Shown here in pieces: positions 21,327 through 53,295 of a stretch of 64,000 bases of DNA. This DNA comes from Methanococcoides methylutens MM1 (lineage in GTDB: Archaea > Halobacteriota > Methanosarcinia > Methanosarcinales > Methanosarcinaceae). Location of the stretch: the NCBI RefSeq assembly GCF_000970325.1, contig NZ_CP009518.1, positions 1,426,001 to 1,490,000 of the forward strand, given 5' to 3'. The notes under the pieces were generated by a model, which was given only the letters and a program-made list of their open reading frames with translations, ran no database searches and was not told the origin of the DNA. The translations under genes and the position numbers were made by a program. Numbering within the stretch: the first letter of the stretch is position 1; each line of letters begins with the position of its first letter.

Positions 21327-21458
21327 CCAGATCACGCTTCTGGACGCGCCAGATCACGCTTCTGGACGCGCCAGATCACGCTTCTGGACGCGCCAGATCA
21401 CGCTTCTGGACGCGCCAGATCACGCTTCTGGACGCGCCAGATCACGCTTCTGGAGCGC
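21327..21458. repeat. Six tandem copies of a 22-bp hairpin unit
   Basis: Units begin at 21327, 21349, 21371, 21393, 21415 and 21437. Each carries CCAGA and TCTGG arms around a 7-base loop (TCACGCT), with ACGCG as linker. All six are identical until the last, which runs into the larger dispersed repeat. Because there are no spacers this is not a CRISPR array. Confidence 0.95.
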
Positions 21459-31218: not shown

Positions 31219-31587
31219 TTCAAGTTGAAGGACAAAGAGTTCCGTAGACTCCGGAATTTCTTCAACTACTGCGAGGATGAGGAGATTAATTATGTTGCCG
31301 GATACGGCATACAGAAATGAAGGCACTTCATCAAAATTCAAAGATCTGGAGTTGTCGAGGTATATGTCAATGACGACGAAATGAAGGAAGCCTATGATGC
31401 CTGTCTGGAAAACATTAAGGCAGTCTTCCATTTACTTGCACACTTTAGAAGCAGGCCAACATACCTCCATAAAATGCTCCAGAGCTTCGATGAGAAGAAA
31501 ATTATCCTAGATTGGGATCTTGCCTTACACCACAGCTTCTTTTTTAGAAGAAACAAAATTACCTTTGAGATACATGCATACAACTAA
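31219..31587 (+). pseudogene. Remnant of an SSV-type integrase
   Basis: The translation FKLKDKEFRRLRNFFNYCED continues colinear with the intact integrase at 33.35 kb (residues about 38-160), with a TGA in place of Trp after GYGIQK and with the catalytic Arg region changed (HFRSRPTYLH). Both ends are missing. It marks an earlier, now deleted element related to the one at 33.2-53.3 kb. Confidence 0.9.
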
Positions 31588-31599
31588 TTAATATCTAAA

Positions 31600-32592
31600 T
31601 CATTGATGTCTAACTTTATTTCCTAAAATAAACCCAAAGATTGCAATTAATAGTATCCCAAATATTCTTTGAATTATCATAATAATGTCAAATCCTAAAA
31701 ACATATTTGTTACTTCTTCGGTGCTCATAGCCACCATATTCTTTAGACTTATCATGATCGGATTGTAAAGATACGTGTCAGGCAATTCAATAGAATATAT
31801 GTAAGTAAGTAGTATATAGTAAAAAATTGCAAACAAAATAGTTATACTGATAAACGTACCCATTGTTTTATATAAACTTTCACCATACCCACATATAAAA
31901 TCAATAGAATAATTAGAAAATAAAGAATATATGTTTTTAATTTTGTGATAAAAAGAAGGAGCATTTTTACCTTTAAGTTTCAATTCATTTTTCAATTGTT
32001 CGCGTTCCATTTTTTTAGCTTGTAAATATGCCCAATTTGAATCACCGATATGACCTTTACTCAGCCAAAAACCACTTAGAAGTTCAAAAATAACCTTTGC
32101 ATCTGAGAATCTTTTATTTAAAGAGGCTTCCCAATCCCATTCAGTACCTTCGGGACGGCGACGATACCATTCTTCCAGAAAAGTTCTATAAAGCTCTTCA
32201 TTTTGCTGTAATATTTTATGATTTTTAAGATTACTTTTCCCTATAGTTGCCCCATCACGAATATCAGGTAAACCAGTATTAGATATACTACAGTTTATAA
32301 AAATATTCACTCCACTGAATAAAGCTCTATAAAAATCACAATACTCAATATTTGATGATTCAAATGTTGTACCACTTATCTTAGAATATTTGAAATTACA
32401 CCATGAAATTATAGCCTCACGAAATCTACAATTTATTAGTTTACAGTTTAAAAAACTAGTATGATTAAGGTTAGCTTTATCAAAATTACAGTTAATTAGA
32501 ATTGCATTATCAAAAATAATTTCATTAAGGTTAGCTTTTTTAAAGATAACATTTTTAATAACTTTGCTTTTTTGGTCCTTCTTAGAAAACAC
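31600..32592 (-). CDS. Pentapeptide-repeat protein with C-terminal pore-like membrane domain
   Basis: 330 residues. The first 110 form pentapeptide repeats with the A/C-N/D-L/F-x-x pattern (KANLNEIIFDNAILINCNF), a right-handed beta helix. A helical linker follows (EWYRRRPEGTEWDWEAS). The C-terminal third has one helix (FISITILFAIFYYILLTYIY), a re-entrant-like segment (MISLKNMVAMSTEEVTN) and a last helix with GILLIAIFGFILGN, the layout of two-helix ion channels without the K+ filter TVGYG. Such fusions occur in many prokaryotes, and the ligand is unknown. AT-rich and between integrase relics, so probably cargo. The start is GTG. Confidence 0.65.
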   Translation of the reverse strand: MFSKKDQKSKVIKNVIFKKANLNEIIFDNAILINCNFDKANLNHTSFLNCKLINCRFREAIISWCNFKYSKISGTTFESSNIEYCDFYRALFSGVNIFINCSISNTGLPDIRDGATIGKSNLKNHKILQQNEELYRTFLEEWYRRRPEGTEWDWEASLNKRFSDAKVIFELLSGFWLSKGHIGDSNWAYLQAKKMEREQLKNELKLKGKNAPSFYHKIKNIYSLFSNYSIDFICGYGESLYKTMGTFISITILFAIFYYILLTYIYSIELPDTYLYNPIMISLKNMVAMSTEEVTNMFLGFDIIMIIQRIFGILLIAIFGFILGNKVRHQ

Positions 32593-32854: not shown

Positions 32855-33028
32855 TTAAACGGAAAAATAACATATAACCGAATAATTAACCTAGACGAAA
32901 ACCTGCAAGTTGTGCAACCTTCACATTCATCCCTCGAAACCCGCCTGGAAACCCTCGAAAACCAGATGAAATCATTGGAGAAATCGCTACAGACCACCGG
33001 CTCTTCCTCTCGAAAATCAAAAGAATAG
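32855..33028 (+). pseudogene. Truncated AbrB-like gene, 3' end only
   Basis: The frame reads NLDENLQVVQPS, then LETRLETLENQMKSLEKSLQ, and ends SRKSKE-TAG, matching the last 50 residues of the intact AbrB-like protein at 52.8-53.1 kb. The DNA-binding half is gone. The frame is in phase with the integrase downstream. Confidence 0.85.
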
Positions 33029-33095
33029 GATTGTGATGGGGGCGGTGAGATTCACAACCCAGATACCGCTTCTGAACCACAGCCCGAGCTTTCTC
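33029..33095. repeat. Decayed attachment site and hairpin repeat
   Basis: GGCGGTGAGATTCACAACCC (33040-33059) is a degenerate copy of the tRNA-Val T-arm region. AGATACCGCTTCTG (33061-33074) then corresponds to the start of the dispersed hairpin repeat. This is an older att scar wedged between the AbrB-like relic and the present left attachment site. Confidence 0.6.
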
Positions 33096-33246
33096 GCTTC
33101 GCTCAACACCTCACTGACAGCAGAACGGAAGTCTCAATTGTAGAATCAAAACAGCAAGCCCAAAGCTCTTCATTTCGAAACCCAAAAGAATAGAAGTGTG
33201 GTGGGCCCGGTGAGATTCGAACTCACGACCCCCGCCGTGTAAAGGC
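33096..33246. repeat. Left attachment site: 151-bp direct repeat
   Basis: Identical over 151 bp to 53116-53266. It contains the 3' half of tRNA-Val (33199-33246, minus-strand sense, up to the anticodon loop) plus 103 bp of hairpin-repeat tail. The crossover took place somewhere within it. Confidence 0.95.
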
Positions 33247-34087
33247 TTCCGATAGCGTTTTTGGACCAAATTGCAAACCAAAAAACCAAGAACAGTATGC
33301 AACTCTTAACGAATTTTGGGAAGGACACAAAGAAGAATTCAATTCATGGTTGGATCTACGAGACATCATACCCTCCACGAAACAGTCCTACAGAAGTGCT
33401 GTCCCAAGATTCTTCGAAAAATATGTAGTCTACAAGCCAAAGGATCTTCGAGCTTTCAAGTTGAAAGACAAGGAATCTCGTGGGCTCCGAAATTTCTTCA
33501 ATTACTGTGAAGACGAAGATATTGATTATGTTGTCGGATACAGCATCGAGAAATGGAGGCGCTTCATCAAAATTCGAAAATCGGGAGTAACGGAAGTATA
33601 TGTCACTAATGACGAAGTGAAGGAAGCCTATGATGCCTGTCCGGACGACATGAAGACCATCTTTCAATTACTCGCATACTCTGGAAGTAGACTCACACAT
33701 ATCCATAAAATGCTCCAGAGCTTCGATGAGAGGAAAATTATCGTAGATGGGGATGTTGCCTACTACCCCACAGCTTCCTTCTCAGAAGGGACGAAAAACA
33801 CCTTTGAGGTCTTTTTCCCCACCACCTTCATCCCCAAGCTCAAGAGCATCAGTAAAGTTTACTGCTATTTCACCTTCATGAAGAAAATTCGCCATGGAAG
33901 AGTATCTGCGAAGACCATTCGCAAATGGCATCTCAACATAATGATAAAGGAAGGAGTCACCGAAAGCCTTGCAGACTTCATCCAAGGACGGGCTTCCATG
34001 ACCGTCGGAAGTGCCCATTACCTCAACAAGGTTGAACAGGCGAAGAACGAATACAGAAGGATTATGAGGAAGCTCTCGATAGTTTAA
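33194..34087 (+). CDS. SSV-type tyrosine integrase, N-terminus cut off by integration
   Basis: The conserved body runs from TTG 33350 (245 residues): an N-terminal SAM-like domain (SYRSAVPRFFEKYVV, LRNFFNYCED), then LAYSGSRLTHIHKMLQS with the first catalytic Arg, a C-terminal domain with VSAKTIRKWHLNIM, and SAHYLNKVEQAKNEY with the Tyr. The frame is open upstream through the tRNA half to TAG 33191-33193 (K-C-G-G-P-G-E-I-R-T-H-D-P), as in SSV-type integrases whose gene spans attP. No ATG exists in that stretch. In the excised circle the frame would continue to ATG 53112 through one TAG, giving 331 residues, the normal length of SSV-type integrases. Confidence 0.85.
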   Translation, partial: KCGGPGEIRTHDPRRVKASDSVFGPNCKPKNQEQYATLNEFWEGHKEEFNSWLDLRDIIPSTKQSYRSAVPRFFEKYVVYKPKDLRAFKLKDKESRGLRNFFNYCEDEDIDYVVGYSIEKWRRFIKIRKSGVTEVYVTNDEVKEAYDACPDDMKTIFQLLAYSGSRLTHIHKMLQSFDERKIIVDGDVAYYPTASFSEGTKNTFEVFFPTTFIPKLKSISKVYCYFTFMKKIRHGRVSAKTIRKWHLNIMIKEGVTESLADFIQGRASMTVGSAHYLNKVEQAKNEYRRIMRKLSIV

Positions 34088-36386: not shown

Positions 36387-39143
36387 ATGAGCAACAACCA
36401 GAACCCAGAACAAAAAGCAAGAGACATCATCGATACGAAGCTTAACGATGCTGGATGGGTCGTTCAGGACAAAAATAAAGTCGACTGGAATGCTTCTTCG
36501 GGAATTGCTGTGAAAGAATATCAGACGGACGTGGGACCTGCTGATTATGTTCTTTTTGTCGATAGAAGACCGGTTGGGATCATCGAGGCCAAAAAAGAGG
36601 AGGAAGGTCATCATCTGACGGTTGTTGAAGAGCAGTCGTCCAGATATGCCACAAGCAAATTGAAGTATCTGGACAATGACCCACTTGATTTTGTTTATGA
36701 AAGTACTGGAGAAGTCACACGATTCACAAACCACCGAGACCCAAAACCAAGGTCCAGACGTGTTTTCTCATTCCATAAGCCGGAAACCTTCCGGACCTAT
36801 CTCAAGAAGGACAAATCCTTGAGAACACGCCTCCTTGACATACCGGAATTAAAACACGAAGGACTCCGAGATTGTCAGATCATGGCTATCGACAACCTCG
36901 AACGCTCTTTCAAGGATAATCACCCCAGAGCTCTCGTTCAAATGGCAACAGGCTCCGGAAAAACCTACACCGCAATCACATTCATTTACCGCCTTCTGAA
37001 GTATGCGGACGCAAAAAAGATCCTGTTCCTTGTTGATACCAGAAACCTTGGAGAACAGGCGGAACAGGAATTCATGGCCTACATGCCAAACGACGATAAC
37101 CGCAAATTTATGGAGCTCTACAACGTCCAGAGGCTACGTTCCAATTACATTTCATCGGACAGCCAGGTATGCATTTCCACAATCCAACGTATGTATTCCA
37201 TTCTTAAAGATGAGGAGCTTGATGAGGAATCCGAAACCGAGAACCCCGCAGAAAAGGAATGGCAACCAAAGGAACCAATGCCTGTAGTCTATAATGAGAA
37301 AATCCCTATCGAAGAATTTGATTTTGTAGTGGTCGATGAATGCCACCGCTCCATCTATAACCTCTGGCAACAGGTCCTTGACTATTTCGATTCATTCATC
37401 ATAGGCTTGACTGCAACCCCGGACAAACGCACCTTCGGATTCTTCAACGAGAATGTTGTGAGCGAGTATGGTCATGAAGAAGCGGTTGCTGATGGTGTGA
37501 ACGTTGGATATGAAGTGTACACCATTGAAACCGAGATCACGAAAAACGGAGCGGAAATCAAGGCGAAGGAATTCGTGGACAAAAGGGAGAAGCTGAGCCG
37601 GAGGAAGCGATGGGAACAGCTTGATGAGGCCTACACGTACACCGGGAAGAGGCTTGACAGGGATGTCGTCAACCCAAGCCAAATACGAAACGTCATAAGG
37701 ACCTTCAAAAACAAGCTCCCGGAAATTTTCCCCGAAAGAGAAGAGGTCCCTAAGACACTCATATTCGCCAAGACCGACAGCCATGCGGATGACATCATCC
37801 AAATTGTCCGAGAGGAGTTCGGAGAAGGTAATGCCTTCTGCAAGAAGGTGACCTACAAAGTCGAAGAAGACCCGAAATCAGTGCTCTCCCAGTTCCGTAA
37901 TGATTACAACCCAAGGATTGCCGTTACGGTGGATATGATCGCCACAGGTACGGACGTGAAGCCTCTGGAGTGTCTCCTTTTCATGAGGGATGTCAAAAGC
38001 CGAAACTACTTCGAGCAAATGAAAGGTCGAGGAACCCGTACCATGGGTCATGATGACCTCAAAAAAGTAACACCTTCAGCAGTTTCATCCAAGACTCATT
38101 TCGTGGTCGTTGATGCTGTTGGGGTCACAAAGTCCATGAAAACCGACAGTAGACCTCTGGAGCGAAAGAAAGGAATTGCCCTTAAGGACCTCCTTGCTGC
38201 TGTCACTTTTGGAGCTCAAGATGAGGATATTTACATTTCATTGGGCGGTCGTTTGGCGAGGCTAAACAAACAGATAACCGACGATGAGAAAGCCACCTTT
38301 GCCGAGAAAGCCGGAGGAAAAGACCTCAGTGAAGCAATCCGGGACCTTTTTAGTGCATATAATCCCGACATCATCGAGGCCAGAGCTGCTGGAATAAGGC
38401 AACTGGAGCCTCAGATGGACGAGCAGGAGGCACAGAAGCAAGCCCAACAGGAGCTTATCGATGTCGCAAGATCGACCTTCTCCGGGGAGCTTAACGAATA
38501 CATCGAAAATGTCCGTAGAGTCCACGAACAGATCATCGATACAGTCAACGTCGACAAGGTCCTCAGAGCCGAATGGGACAAGGATGCTGTCGTAAAGGCA
38601 GATGAACTCATATCTGACTTCAAGGCCTATCTGGAGGCAAATAAGGACGAAATCACGGCCCTCAGAATCTTCTACAACCAACCCTTCAATCGGAGGGACG
38701 TTACCTTCACGATGGTCAAGGAAGTCCTCGAGAAACTCAAACTGGAGAAACCATACCTCGCACCTTCAAGGGTATGGAAGGCCTACGAACAGCTCGAGAA
38801 GGTCAATGGTAATTCCCCGAAGAACGAGCTCACAGCCCTCGTATCCCTCATTCGCAGAGTCACCGATATCGACCCCGTCCTGACCGCCTACGACCAGACC
38901 GTGAACCGGAATTTCCAGGAATGGGTGTTCTCTAAACAGGCCGGAACCCTCAAGTTCAATGAAGACCAGATGAACTGGCTCCGAATGATAAAAGATTACG
39001 TCGCCACCAGCTTCCATCTTGAACTCGAAGACCTCGATTATAGTCCTTTCGATGCTCTGGGAGGTCGTGGAATGATGTATCAGCTCTTTGGTGAAGAGAT
39101 GAATGTGGTTATTAGTGAATTGAATGAGGCTTTGGCGGCGTGA
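36387..39143 (+). CDS. hsdR: Type I restriction enzyme, R subunit
   Basis: 918 residues. The N-terminal nuclease domain has DYVLFVDRRPVGIIEAKK (PD-ExK). The SF2 motor has Walker A MATGSGKTYTA, VVDECHRS, GLTATPDKRT and the helicase-end motif QMKGRGTR. The C-terminal region binds the methylase. It translocates DNA and cuts it away from the recognition site. The order R-S-M, with the hsdS start overlapping the hsdR stop, shows one operon. GC content is higher than in the AT-rich island genes, so the module may have a different source. Confidence 0.95.
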   Translation: MSNNQNPEQKARDIIDTKLNDAGWVVQDKNKVDWNASSGIAVKEYQTDVGPADYVLFVDRRPVGIIEAKKEEEGHHLTVVEEQSSRYATSKLKYLDNDPLDFVYESTGEVTRFTNHRDPKPRSRRVFSFHKPETFRTYLKKDKSLRTRLLDIPELKHEGLRDCQIMAIDNLERSFKDNHPRALVQMATGSGKTYTAITFIYRLLKYADAKKILFLVDTRNLGEQAEQEFMAYMPNDDNRKFMELYNVQRLRSNYISSDSQVCISTIQRMYSILKDEELDEESETENPAEKEWQPKEPMPVVYNEKIPIEEFDFVVVDECHRSIYNLWQQVLDYFDSFIIGLTATPDKRTFGFFNENVVSEYGHEEAVADGVNVGYEVYTIETEITKNGAEIKAKEFVDKREKLSRRKRWEQLDEAYTYTGKRLDRDVVNPSQIRNVIRTFKNKLPEIFPEREEVPKTLIFAKTDSHADDIIQIVREEFGEGNAFCKKVTYKVEEDPKSVLSQFRNDYNPRIAVTVDMIATGTDVKPLECLLFMRDVKSRNYFEQMKGRGTRTMGHDDLKKVTPSAVSSKTHFVVVDAVGVTKSMKTDSRPLERKKGIALKDLLAAVTFGAQDEDIYISLGGRLARLNKQITDDEKATFAEKAGGKDLSEAIRDLFSAYNPDIIEARAAGIRQLEPQMDEQEAQKQAQQELIDVARSTFSGELNEYIENVRRVHEQIIDTVNVDKVLRAEWDKDAVVKADELISDFKAYLEANKDEITALRIFYNQPFNRRDVTFTMVKEVLEKLKLEKPYLAPSRVWKAYEQLEKVNGNSPKNELTALVSLIRRVTDIDPVLTAYDQTVNRNFQEWVFSKQAGTLKFNEDQMNWLRMIKDYVATSFHLELEDLDYSPFDALGGRGMMYQLFGEEMNVVISELNEALAA

Positions 39144-40672
39144 TGATGGAAGAAAAAGTTGGATGGATCGATACAAATTTATCAGTAATCTCAAATAAAA
39201 TAACCGATGGTTCTCATAATCCTCCACCCAAATCAGAAGTTGGAGAACCGATGTTAAGTGCTCAAAACGTCTTCGATGACCATATTTTGTTTGAAGGGTA
39301 TAGACTAATTACAAGTGACAACTTTGAAAAAGAATACAAGAGAGCGAATGTTGAACCCGGAGATGTACTACTAACAATTGTAGGCACGATAGGACGTTCA
39401 ACGGTAGTCCCTGATAAAATAAGGAAGTTCACACTTCAGCGAAGTGTTGCATTAATTAAACCAAATACGATAAATTCACACTACATTTCCTATTATTTAA
39501 GATCTCCAAAAAGCCAGATATATTTCCAACAAAATTCAAAAGGTACAGCACAAAAAGGAATTTACTTAAATTCATTAAAAAAGTTACCAATTTCGTTTCC
39601 ACCCCTCCTCGAACAACACGCTATCGTCTCCAAAATCGAACAACTCTTCAGCGACCTCGACAACGGCATTGCTAACCTCAAATTGGCCCAAGAACAGCTC
39701 AAGGTGTACCGTCAGGCGGTGTTGAAAAAGGCCTTTGAGGGGGAACTTACGAGGGAATGGCGGGAACAACAGACTAACCTCACAGATGCGGAAGATTTAC
39801 TCGAGCAGATTCGGTTGGAAAGGGAAGAGAATTATAACAAGAAGCTTGATGAGTGGAAAGGAGCAATAAAAGAATGGGAATCTGCGGGAAAGGAAGGGAA
39901 AAAACCCAGCAAACCAAAAAAAATCAAGAAAACTGAAAGATTTACAGAATCCGAATTGGTTGACTTGCCAAAGCTATTAGAGAACTGGGCATGGATTAGG
40001 TTAGAGGAAATCTCAAATAAAATAACCGATGGTTCTCATAATCCTCCACCCAAATCAGAAGTTGGAGAACCGATGTTAAGTGCTCAAAACGTCTTCGATG
40101 ACCATATTTTGTTTGAAGGGTATAGACTAATTACAAGTGACAACTTTGAAAAAGAATACAAGAGAGCGAATGTTGAACCCGGAGATGTACTACTAACAAT
40201 TGTAGGCACGATAGGACGTTCAACGGTAGTCCCTGATAAAATAAGGAAGTTCACACTTCAGCGAAGTGTTGCATTAATTAAACCAAATACGATAAATTCA
40301 CACTACATTTCCTATTATTTAAGATCTCCAAAAAGCCAACCCTACTTCCAAAATCATTCAAAAGGCACTGCCCAAAAAGGAATTTACTTAAATTCATTAA
40401 AAAATTTGCCAATTTCACTTGCTCCCCTCCCTGAGCAACAAGCCATCGTAACCGAAATCGAAACACGGCTTTCGGTTTGTGAGAAAGTCGAACAGGACAT
40501 CGAAGAAAACCTCGAAAGGGCCGAAGCATTGCGACTGAGTATCTTGAAAAAGGCGTTTGAAGGGAAGTTACTCAATAAGAGGGAGCTTGAGGAAGTTCGC
40601 AATGAAGCGGATTGGGAACCTGCTGAGGTATTGCTTGAACGAATAAAGACCGAAAAAGCGAATAAAAAATAA
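39143..40672 (+). CDS. hsdS: Type I restriction enzyme, S (specificity) subunit with two identical recognition domains
   Basis: A 509-residue S subunit with two target-recognition domains, each followed by a conserved helix (LEQHAIVSKIEQLFSDLD and PEQQAIVTEIETRLSV). The two recognition domains are encoded by a perfect 330-bp direct duplication (39187-39516 and 40009-40338), while flanking sequences differ. Each domain reads half of the bipartite site, so a symmetrical (inverted-repeat) recognition sequence is expected. The first domain starts almost at the N-terminus. The ATG at 39143 overlaps the hsdR stop. Confidence 0.93.
   Translation: MMEEKVGWIDTNLSVISNKITDGSHNPPPKSEVGEPMLSAQNVFDDHILFEGYRLITSDNFEKEYKRANVEPGDVLLTIVGTIGRSTVVPDKIRKFTLQRSVALIKPNTINSHYISYYLRSPKSQIYFQQNSKGTAQKGIYLNSLKKLPISFPPLLEQHAIVSKIEQLFSDLDNGIANLKLAQEQLKVYRQAVLKKAFEGELTREWREQQTNLTDAEDLLEQIRLEREENYNKKLDEWKGAIKEWESAGKEGKKPSKPKKIKKTERFTESELVDLPKLLENWAWIRLEEISNKITDGSHNPPPKSEVGEPMLSAQNVFDDHILFEGYRLITSDNFEKEYKRANVEPGDVLLTIVGTIGRSTVVPDKIRKFTLQRSVALIKPNTINSHYISYYLRSPKSQPYFQNHSKGTAQKGIYLNSLKNLPISLAPLPEQQAIVTEIETRLSVCEKVEQDIEENLERAEALRLSILKKAFEGKLLNKRELEEVRNEADWEPAEVLLERIKTEKANKK
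39187..39516 (+). repeat. 330-bp direct repeat within hsdS, copy 1
   Basis: Identical to 40009-40338 with an offset of 822 bp. It encodes KITDGSHNPPPKSEVGEPML and the rest of the recognition domain. Confidence 0.97.
40009..40338 (+). repeat. 330-bp direct repeat within hsdS, copy 2
   Basis: Second perfect copy. Sequence on both sides diverges at once (Q-I-Y-F-Q-Q-N against Q-P-Y-F-Q-N-H after the repeat), so it is a domain replacement rather than a gene duplication. Confidence 0.97.
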
Positions 40673-40695
40673 TTCTCATACCAAGGATCAAAAAC

Positions 40696-42186
40696 ATGGC
40701 CGAACATACATCATCCATTGTCTCCAAAGTTTGGAGTTTCTGTAATGTCCTCCGTGATGGGGGAGTAAGCTATGGCGATTATCTGGAGCAATTGACGTAT
40801 CTCATATTCCTGAAAATGGCGGAGGAATACAGAAAACCTCCATATAACCGCGATATTGGAATTCCGGAGGAATTCACATGGGAAGTCTTAAAGCAAACAC
40901 GTGGAGCTGAGCTTGACACCCATTACAGGATGCTTCTGGAGGAACTGGGGAAAAAGCCAGGTATGCTCGGGCAGATTTTCCTCAAGGCCCAGAACAAGGT
41001 CAGTGACCCTGCAATGCTCTACAAGGTCATCGACATGATCGACAAGGAAAGCTGGGTGATGATGGGTGTTGACACCAAGGGCGAAATCTACGAAGGTCTT
41101 TTGCAGAAGAACGCGGAGGATACCAAGAGTGGAGCTGGACAATATTTCACTCCAAGACCTCTTATCAAGACCATGGTGGAGTGTGTAAGGCCTGAGCCTA
41201 TGAAGACCATAGGTGACCCTTGCTGTGGTACAGGGGGCTTCTTCTTAGCTGCATACGACTTCCTCAAGGACCACTACCAACCGGACAGGGAACACAGTCG
41301 TTTCCTCAAAAAGAAGACCTTTGGAGGCAATGAGATCGTTGCAGGAACGCGAAGACTGGCACTCATGAACCTCTTCCTCCACAACATTGGAGAAATCGAC
41401 GGGGAACCTGCAATCTCCAATTCAGATGCTCTCATCGCCGACCCCGGAGTACGTTATGATTACATCCTCACAAATCCTCCATTCGGTAAGAAGAGCAGTA
41501 TGACCTTCACTAACGATGCAGGAGAACAGGAAAAGGAAGATCTCACCTACAACCGTCAGGACTTCTGGGTTACAACAAGCAACAAACAGCTCAACTTCGT
41601 CCAGCATATCCACACCATCCTCAAAGCTGGAGGTCAGGCGGCAGTGGTCCTTCCGGATAATGTTCTTTTCGAAGGAGGTGTAGGGGAAACAGTCCGCAAA
41701 AAGCTCCTTGAGACCACCGACCTCCACACGATACTTCGCCTCCCCACAGGCATATTCTATGCGAATGGTGTCAAGGCAAACGTCTTGTTCTTCGATGCAA
41801 AACCCGCATCAAAGGACCCATGGACAAAGGAAGTCTGGATTTACGATTACAGGACCAACGTCCATCACACGATGAAGAAGAATCTCATGAAGTTCTCAGA
41901 TCTGGAGGATTTTGTCAGGTGTTACAATCCAGAAGACCGTTTCAAGCGTGAGGAGACCTGGAGCGAAGAGAATCCGGAGGGTCGGTTCCGCAAGTTCACC
42001 TACGACGAAATCGTTGCAAGAGACAAGACGAACCTCGATATATTCTGGCTCAAGGATGCGAGTCTTGCCGATCTCGATAATTTGCCGGACCCCGATGTTC
42101 TTGCGAACGAGATAATCGAAAACATCGAAGCTTCTCTTGAAAGCTTCAAGGAGATCATGGAAGTTATCAATGGGGACGGCGAGTGA
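40696..42186 (+). CDS. hsdM: Type I restriction enzyme, M (methylase) subunit
   Basis: A 496-residue N6-adenine methyltransferase with an N-terminal HsdM helical domain (YGDYLEQLTYLIFLKMAEEY), SAM-binding motif DPCCGTGGFFLAAYD, and catalytic NPPFG. With HsdS it protects host DNA; with HsdR it forms the restriction complex. AAGGATC is the ribosome-binding site. It follows hsdS by 23 bases and closes the R-S-M operon, possibly with the RNase III-like gene downstream. Confidence 0.95.
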   Translation: MAEHTSSIVSKVWSFCNVLRDGGVSYGDYLEQLTYLIFLKMAEEYRKPPYNRDIGIPEEFTWEVLKQTRGAELDTHYRMLLEELGKKPGMLGQIFLKAQNKVSDPAMLYKVIDMIDKESWVMMGVDTKGEIYEGLLQKNAEDTKSGAGQYFTPRPLIKTMVECVRPEPMKTIGDPCCGTGGFFLAAYDFLKDHYQPDREHSRFLKKKTFGGNEIVAGTRRLALMNLFLHNIGEIDGEPAISNSDALIADPGVRYDYILTNPPFGKKSSMTFTNDAGEQEKEDLTYNRQDFWVTTSNKQLNFVQHIHTILKAGGQAAVVLPDNVLFEGGVGETVRKKLLETTDLHTILRLPTGIFYANGVKANVLFFDAKPASKDPWTKEVWIYDYRTNVHHTMKKNLMKFSDLEDFVRCYNPEDRFKREETWSEENPEGRFRKFTYDEIVARDKTNLDIFWLKDASLADLDNLPDPDVLANEIIENIEASLESFKEIMEVINGDGE

Positions 42187-42799: not shown

Positions 42800-42856
42800 T
42801 ACAATTGTGATTAATTATAGAAAACTACTTACTATTTCCGAGATTATGTGCATAGC

Positions 42857-43369
42857 ATGGGAATTGTCAATGTGGTTGCAACAGTAGAATTAACATCTCC
42901 TTTAGACCTTGAAAAGGTAAAGGAATCAATCGAAAATACCGAATTTTCGTCTTCAGGTGCTGGATGGCTCAAAATGAGATTAATGCCTGAGGGTCACTAT
43001 ATAGCATTTTATAAATCTGGAAAATTTCTAATCACGGGTCTTAAATCTGTACAAAAAGTGGATGAAGTTGCTAATAGAGTCATATCACTTGTTAAAAATT
43101 CAGGAATAGACATTGATAAAAAGAAAATCATAATCCAAAACATTGTTGCTGTTGATAAAATTGAAATGAGTTCCACTCTTGAAAAACTTATACATTCGCT
43201 GGATCCGTCGAAAACGAATTATGAACCAGAACAATTTCCAGGTTTAATTTATAAAGATTTTGGCGCAACTTTTCTCCTATTTTCAAATGGAAAAATGATA
43301 ATAAATGGTGTCAAAAAAGAAAATGATTTGAAAAATTTAGTCATCAAATTTGAGAGTTTAATTCAGTAA
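42857..43369 (+). CDS. Divergent TATA-box-binding protein
   Basis: 170 residues with the two-repeat TBP layout. Repeat 1 reads IVNVVATVELTSPLDLEKV and ends AFYKSGKFLITGLKS. Repeat 2 has IIIQNIVAVDKIEM, EPEQFPGLIYKDFG, and LFSNGKMIINGVKKE, which are unmistakable TBP sequence. Repeat 1 has lost the PEQFPG-like segment (GAGWLKMRLMPEG instead), so DNA contacts on that side will differ. TBP recruits TFB and RNA polymerase to promoters. An element-borne TBP could redirect host transcription. Start ATG 42857 (or GTG 42848) lies about 40 bases after the TATA-like AATTATAG, so a short leader is expected. Confidence 0.88.
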   Translation: MGIVNVVATVELTSPLDLEKVKESIENTEFSSSGAGWLKMRLMPEGHYIAFYKSGKFLITGLKSVQKVDEVANRVISLVKNSGIDIDKKKIIIQNIVAVDKIEMSSTLEKLIHSLDPSKTNYEPEQFPGLIYKDFGATFLLFSNGKMIINGVKKENDLKNLVIKFESLIQ

Positions 43370-52769: not shown

Positions 52770-53078
52770 ATGGAACCTATTGGAAAGTCCAAAATCACAG
52801 GGCATCGGCCTAACAAGGATACCACATATCCACTGATCCGATTACCAAAGTCGTACTCACACCTTATCGGAGAAACAGCCCATTTTTTTGAAATCGACAA
52901 CAATGGAACTCCTTTATTAGTAATTTCCTTGGACGAAGATTTCGACGGAAACATCAAAATTGTACAATCCACACCATCAGACCTTGAAACCCGCCTGGAA
53001 TCCCTAGAAAAACAGATGAAATTACTTGAAAAATCGCTACAGACCACCGGCTCTTCCCCTCGAAAACCAAAAGAATAG
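52770..53078 (+). CDS. AbrB-like DNA-binding protein with C-terminal coiled coil
   Basis: 102 residues from ATG 52770 with GGGGAGGG upstream. Residues 1-50 (MEPIGKSKITGHRPNKDTTY, then IRLPKSYSHLIGETAHFFEI) follow the swapped-hairpin AbrB/SpoVT pattern. Residues 70-92 are a leucine-patterned coil (LETRLESLEKQMKLLEKSLQ). The stop is TAG, and the same frame remains open beyond it across the hairpin repeat and the attachment site. A truncated copy lies beside the left attachment site. Probably the regulator of the element and possibly of its integrase. Confidence 0.7.
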   Translation: MEPIGKSKITGHRPNKDTTYPLIRLPKSYSHLIGETAHFFEIDNNGTPLLVISLDEDFDGNIKIVQSTPSDLETRLESLEKQMKLLEKSLQTTGSSPRKPKE

Positions 53079-53115
53079 CCAGATCACGCTTCTGGAGCGC
53101 GGACCGAGGTGATGA
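53079..53115. repeat. Dispersed hairpin repeat, copy D (left part)
   Basis: CCAGA and TCTGG arms at 53079-53095, then GAGGTGATGAGC (53106-53117) pairing with GCTCAACACCTC (53121-53132). ATG 53112-53114 within it is in frame with the integrase of the excised circle. Confidence 0.85.
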
Positions 53116-53266
53116 GCTTCGCTCAACACCTCACTGACAGCAGAACGGAAGTCTCAATTGTAGAATCAAAACAGCAAGCCCAAAGCTCTTCATTTCGAAA
53201 CCCAAAAGAATAGAAGTGTGGTGGGCCCGGTGAGATTCGAACTCACGACCCCCGCCGTGTAAAGGC
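53116..53266. repeat. Right attachment site: 151-bp direct repeat
   Basis: Identical to 33096-33246. It includes the 3' half of the intact tRNA-Val gene and carries TAG 53211-53213 in the AbrB/integrase frame. Confidence 0.95.
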
Positions 53267-53295
53267 GATGTCATGACCGGCTAGACCACGGGCCC
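53219..53295 (-). tRNA. tRNA-Val (anticodon UAC)
   Basis: On the minus strand the acceptor arm GGGCCCG pairs with CGGGCCC, the anticodon loop is TTTACAC (anticodon TAC), the T-arm is GTGAG-TTCGAAT-CTCAC, and the discriminator A is followed by an encoded CCA. It is intact and serves as integration site of the 20-kb element, whose right end lies in its anticodon loop. Confidence 0.95.

Follow-up and report, generated by a model that had tools for sequence, protein, structure and literature searches.

A split tyrosine integrase gene at an archaeal tRNA-Val(UAC), with two in-frame UAG codons in its linker that are probably decoded and tolerated

The closest characterised protein to the integrase described here is that of pT26-2 from Thermococcus sp. 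26/2, with 35 % identity over 97 % of Int(C), the C-terminal part of the integrase. Its parts follow a like order, with a small N-terminal domain, a translated tRNA half (GGPGGIRTRDLR), a core domain starting with SLNEIW and a catalytic domain, whereas its N-terminal domain looks unrelated, its length is 352 aa and it contains no UAG. To our knowledge, its host lacks a Pyl system. The pT26-2 integrase has been reported to be active, and its gene is likewise split on integration (PMC8371274). The SSV1 integrase is alike in its catalytic family (Phage_integr_3, PF16795) and in having attP within the gene, and its N-terminal part has been described as needed for multimerisation (PMC8371274). Gene splitting and translated attachment sites are also described in a review of archaeal tyrosine recombinases, which does not mention AbrB (PMC8371274). 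In-frame UAG codons outside methylamine metabolism are known from amber-containing transposases and from Thg1 of Methanosarcina, also in pyl hosts, and pyrrolysine was found not to be essential in Thg1 (PMC2933860). Those genes differ from the present case in being single and intact, with no integration split and no adjoining tRNA.

The window, a stretch of 64,000 nt from the Methanococcoides methylutens MM1 genome, contains an integration site in the 3' part of a tRNA-Val(UAC) gene (53219-53295, minus strand), at the right end of an element. At the opposite end lies Int(C) (33194-34087, plus strand), which comprises a tRNA-derived segment, a core-binding domain and a catalytic domain, ends with TAA and was assigned to the Phage_integr_3 tyrosine recombinases by profile search (E=1.2e-40). 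The active-site motifs R, K, KTIRKWH and HYLNK are kept in 21 sequences. Int(C) also matches the PDB entries 3vcf, 4dks and 3uxu ('Probable integrase'), which we take to be the catalytic domain of the SSV1 integrase. The remaining part of the gene, Int(N) (52770-53075, plus strand), consists of an N-terminal domain that resembles AbrB by eye and a coiled coil. As in-frame rejoining indicates, the attachment site lies inside the int gene, with int(N) and int(C) at opposite ends of the element. Judged from the gene split, the catalytic domain and the tRNA target, the integrase is a "suicidal" tyrosine integrase of the SSV/pT26-2 type.

Related integrases were found in 34 of 112 Methanosarcinaceae genomes, and Archaeoglobaceae and Thermococcus likewise have relatives of Int(C) in which a tRNA segment is translated. 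Among the viral contigs of IMG/VR there was no relative of Int(C) and none of the N-terminal domain, and the plasmid and phage collections contained distant relatives only. Other suicidal integrases (loci L204, L218, L146 and L219) seem to carry a different small N-terminal domain, ribbon-helix-helix-like by eye, which stands alone or after an AbrB-like one.

The reading frame from ATG 52770 contains TAG at 53076-53078 and at 53211-53213, and its first TAA or TGA is the TGA at 53274-53276, all at the coordinates given by the earlier note. The integrase frame at the left end is open upstream in the same phase apart from TAGs at 33026 and 33191-33193, of which the latter is the counterpart of 53211. 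When the ends are joined as in an excised circle, one frame of 445 codons results with the predicted order of AbrB-like part, TAG, repeat, TAG and integrase, in which the two TAGs are codons 103 and 148 and neither TAA nor TGA occurs. It had also been proposed that translation from ATG 53112 with one decoded UAG would give 331 residues, the usual size of such integrases; the count of 331 codons is correct, whereas the family measures 384-447 aa including the AbrB-like part.

Both ends share a direct repeat of 188 nt (33059-33246 and 53079-53266) with 93 % identity and a spacing of 20,020. Its last 151 nt are identical between the left copy on the attL side (33096-33246) and the right copy on the attR side (53116-53266), which suggests a recent exchange between the ends. 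Upstream of 33059, the left end repeats the AbrB-like tail and its TAG because this region is a relic of the right end of an earlier element: the segment 32894-33028 (plus strand), with TAG 33026 at its end, is 83 % identical to 52944-53078. A relic of the Int(C) of an older element, with one TGA and one TAA, is present at 31219-31600 (plus strand). The att-side repeat copies and the integrase relic between 21400 and 33250 of the window suggest that several older elements are stacked at the same tRNA-Val.

The element ends of relatives were rejoined in the same manner. Nineteen pairings were tried and 16 were usable; G066, G055 and G031 were left out, as no shared core was found, Int(C) was cut by a contig end or Int(C) was decayed. 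All 16 pairings, from Methanococcoides, Methanolobus, Methanosarcina and Methanohalophilus, rejoin in frame to give 384-447 aa, where one right end (G058) is common to two pairings and those of G021 and G038 are less sure because their ends are on different contigs. The tRNA reading frame is identical on both sides of each element. Fourteen of the 16 are free of stops from the start codon onwards, the single TAA of G035 lying ahead of its ATG, and TAG occurs only in the window (two) and in Methanococcoides seepicolus (one). Fused genes exist as well: in G060 (locus L012), the AbrB-like part, the tRNA segment and the integrase form one stop-free ORF of 442 codons, and an intact ORF of 457 codons in G358 (L205), from another family of the phylum, covers Int(N) and Int(C). 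A search for the AbrB-like part placed it beside tRNA genes across the family, and at about 40 right ends the frame of Int(N) continues, uninterrupted by any stop, into the antisense 3' half of a tRNA for Val, Gly or Gln. In other families of the phylum, the tRNA half entered by the frame of this N-terminal domain is that for Val, Asp, Pro, Gly, Cys, Phe, Glu or Arg.

Both parts of the gene appear to be under selection at the protein level, since Int(C) has dN values of 0.17-0.21 against saturated dS and the N-terminal domain has a dN/dS of about 0.16, which indicates purifying selection on both halves. Together with the 16 in-frame joins out of 16, this shows that the shared frame is more than chance. 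The in-frame rejoining and the fused ORFs in relatives therefore identify the "AbrB-like gene" as Int(N), the N-terminal part of a suicidal integrase, and not as a separate regulator. The suggestion of a readthrough fusion of the integrase to its regulator is thus replaced by an ordinary N-terminal integrase domain, fused without a stop in nearly all relatives, and the proposal that the integrase is whole only in the excised circle gains support from the rejoined ends. Many methanogens accordingly have front halves of integrases in the form of small hypothetical ORFs next to their tRNA genes, which annotation easily misses.

The AbrB-like label itself, taken over from the earlier note, rests on resemblance by eye. 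Confirmation was sought with Pfam, NCBIfam, PDB sequences and hhalign, and none of these supported the assignment: no profile match to PF04014 (AbrB / MazE) was obtained in the window or in its relatives, and the hhalign probability for this family was 5.9. In one member, the N-terminal domain gave a weak best match to DUF2080 (E=0.0015). Modelling of the domain with AlphaFold, without an alignment, gave a structure too poor for a fold search (pLDDT 53).

The sequence context of the two TAGs offers an explanation for their presence. An alignment of related integrases had been proposed to see whether UAG is conserved or replaced by sense codons, and UAG proved not to be conserved: TAG stands at the homologous position in three Methanococcoides species only. 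The linkers of G016 and M. seepicolus (G021) share the sequence RKPKE-TAG-K, that at locus L091 of G018 has RKPKE-CAA-D, with CAA at the place of the first TAG, and those of the other relatives consist of unrelated sense codons. The second TAG lies within AAAAGAATAGAAGTG (53204-53218, plus strand), the complement of the T-rich 3' flank of tRNA-Val and a possible tRNA terminator, which is followed by the tRNA 3' half translated antisense as GGPGEIRTHDPRRVKA. In G016 and G021, the 38 nt directly preceding the tRNA match without any difference the flank of a tRNA-Val(UAC) in G023, a locus without an AbrB-like match. The 15 nt of AAAAGAATAGAAGTG are found unchanged beside tRNA-Val(UAC) at loci without an AbrB-like match, and they or a close variant stand beside tRNA-Ile and tRNA-Val(CAC), again at loci without such a match. 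The best-kept part of the flank is AAAAGAATAG, which the tRNA strand reads as CTATTCTTTT, and CTATTCTTTT / CTTCTATTCTTTT at tRNA-Val may be a tRNA terminator. Within the host genome, copies of the TAG-bearing flank were found only at the two tRNA-Val genes; a third match beside tRNA-Thr looks like chance. The TAGs are thus accounted for by attachment-site DNA, and that several elements have them in common does not speak for pyrrolysine at these sites. The variable linker, the CAA in one relative and the position of TAG within tRNA-flank sequence leave little evidence that the UAGs were selected as pyrrolysine codons.

The stretch of 44 codons that separates the TAGs is part of a dispersed repeat, which was detected in 27 of the 112 Methanosarcinaceae genomes, often beside the 3' ends of tRNAs. 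Its core with two hairpins (53079-53138, plus strand) is open in the integrase frame, and further copies in the window lie at 21436, 23818, 28073 and 33059. The two hairpins show paired, compensatory changes (17 cells against 4.4 in shuffles), and folding of the full segment was not better than in shuffles (z -0.78). Conservation of the codons between the TAGs as protein was considered and rejected, since they lie in this repeat and the changes in its two hairpins are paired. At locus L252 of M. seepicolus, three tandem repeat units of 163 nt precede tRNA-Ile, and in a short tandem array at 21376-21450 of the window CCAGATCACGCTTCTGGACGCG, which forms the repeat's first hairpin, recurs several times in succession.

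Archaea in which all TAG codons are read as pyrrolysine have reportedly been described. The earlier note had made its pyrrolysine reading dependent on pylS and pylT, and the host carries both PylS and tRNA-Pyl. Its MtmB and MtbB genes contain in-frame TAG codons, the position of which is conserved, whereas the UAG site of the integrase is variable. Among 272 ORFs of at least 150 aa in 400 kb of the host genome, only 6 terminate at TAG, so that UAG is a rare stop in this host, and four of these six stay open for at least 56 codons past the TAG. As had been noted, no ATG precedes TTG 33350 in the integrase body; the search for a usable start between the second UAG and the core domain also found no GTG or TTG in frame between 33194 and that TTG. 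Given the host Pyl machinery and this lack of a start, a full-length integrase would need UAG decoding. Provided that the joined gene is expressed, its UAGs are probably decoded; both expression from the circle and this decoding are deduced from the host. In a second integrase of M. seepicolus (L069 / L123), the linker that follows the attachment site contains one TAG (NDSS-TAG-NASLNDFW), apparently an independent case of an in-frame UAG.

The reading we favour, and hold to be probable, is a suicidal integrase whose linker UAGs are decoded and tolerated. The window carries an element of about 20 kb, inserted into the 3' end of tRNA-Val(UAC) through an integrase of the SSV/pT26-2 kind, which is encoded by a single gene in the order of small N-terminal domain, coiled coil, linker, antisense tRNA 3' half with the attachment site, core-binding domain and catalytic domain. 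Integration cuts this gene at the attachment site and circularisation restores it, as the comparison with relatives shows. With two UAGs in the linker and no start before the core domain, the complete integrase would arise only by UAG decoding, most likely as pyrrolysine through the host PylS and tRNA-Pyl. The UAGs themselves probably stem from the tRNA 3'-flank sequence (CTATTCTTTT, the possible terminator) and the duplicated hairpin repeat, and would be tolerated since UAG seldom serves as a stop in this host. Nothing indicates that pyrrolysine itself is needed in the integrase, and the simplest and likeliest account is that UAGs are neutrally tolerated in a flexible linker. Three points weigh against this reading: at the 20-30 % read-through per UAG reported for a reporter in M. 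acetivorans (PMC2933860), two UAGs would yield little protein; the right end may have been remodelled after integration, so that the circle, if formed, could differ; and the 151 identical nt at both ends suggest that these exchanged sequence recently.

The main rival is decay, in which the split gene was free of selection and recombination with tRNA-side repeats replaced the linker, leaving real stops and a dead integrase. The sharing of the right-end tail of G016 and G021 with the G023 flank would fit this scenario, as would a copy of the tail in G016 without any integrase left and the older relics stacked to the left. However, neither half is disrupted and purifying selection acts on both, the inserted repeat does not break the reading frame, and M. 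seepicolus shares the TAG while both ends are otherwise intact. TAA or TGA at these positions, which the earlier note had named as evidence against its own reading, were looked for in Methanococcoides relatives and none was found; in the linkers examined beside an intact N-terminal part, the in-frame stops are only TAG. Decay of the right end is considered unlikely, though less so than the alternatives that follow. If translation of the integrase began at TTG 33350 or another weak start, the upstream UAGs would be irrelevant. This TTG is in frame, some relatives (L004, L019) have an ATG shortly before the core domain, and truncated Int(C) of SSV1 and SSV2 is weakly active in vitro (PMC8371274), but the start lies within the conserved LNEFW...W at the beginning of the core domain and would delete that segment, and no ATG, GTG or TTG is available between the second TAG and this codon, which makes an internal start the least probable of these readings.

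A regulated switch would assign a function to the UAGs, with the pyrrolysine supply during growth on methylamines setting, through read-through, how much short Int(N) is made relative to full integrase and so linking mobility to metabolism. UAG decoding in pyl archaea is partial and conserved amber codons have been reported in Methanosarcina transposases (PMC2933860), and TAG stands at the same place in three Methanococcoides species. Against this, most relatives of the same family have no UAG, and the TAG is accounted for by tRNA-flank DNA that is kept even where the N-terminal part has no match, so that such a switch is very unlikely. The related proposal that the integrase is a genuine pyrrolysine protein made only through UAG read-through, with the element's mobility governed jointly by pyrrolysine supply from methylamine metabolism and by whether the circle is present, is viewed with strong doubt. 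If the full-length integrase is made as in the favoured reading of decoded and tolerated UAGs, this would be a natural case of attachment-site sequence bringing UAG into the coding frame of the element itself. Only a host with the extended code could then read the gene, and such variants would be restricted to pyrrolysine-using hosts.

Further genes of the element include a type I restriction-modification system with R, S and M genes (36387-42183 of the window), the S gene of which contains two identical repeats of 300 nt (39187 and 40009). The element also encodes a TATA-binding protein (TBP, PF00352) at 42848-43366, and this gene adjoins those of an RNase III-like protein (42234) and a serine resolvase (43420).
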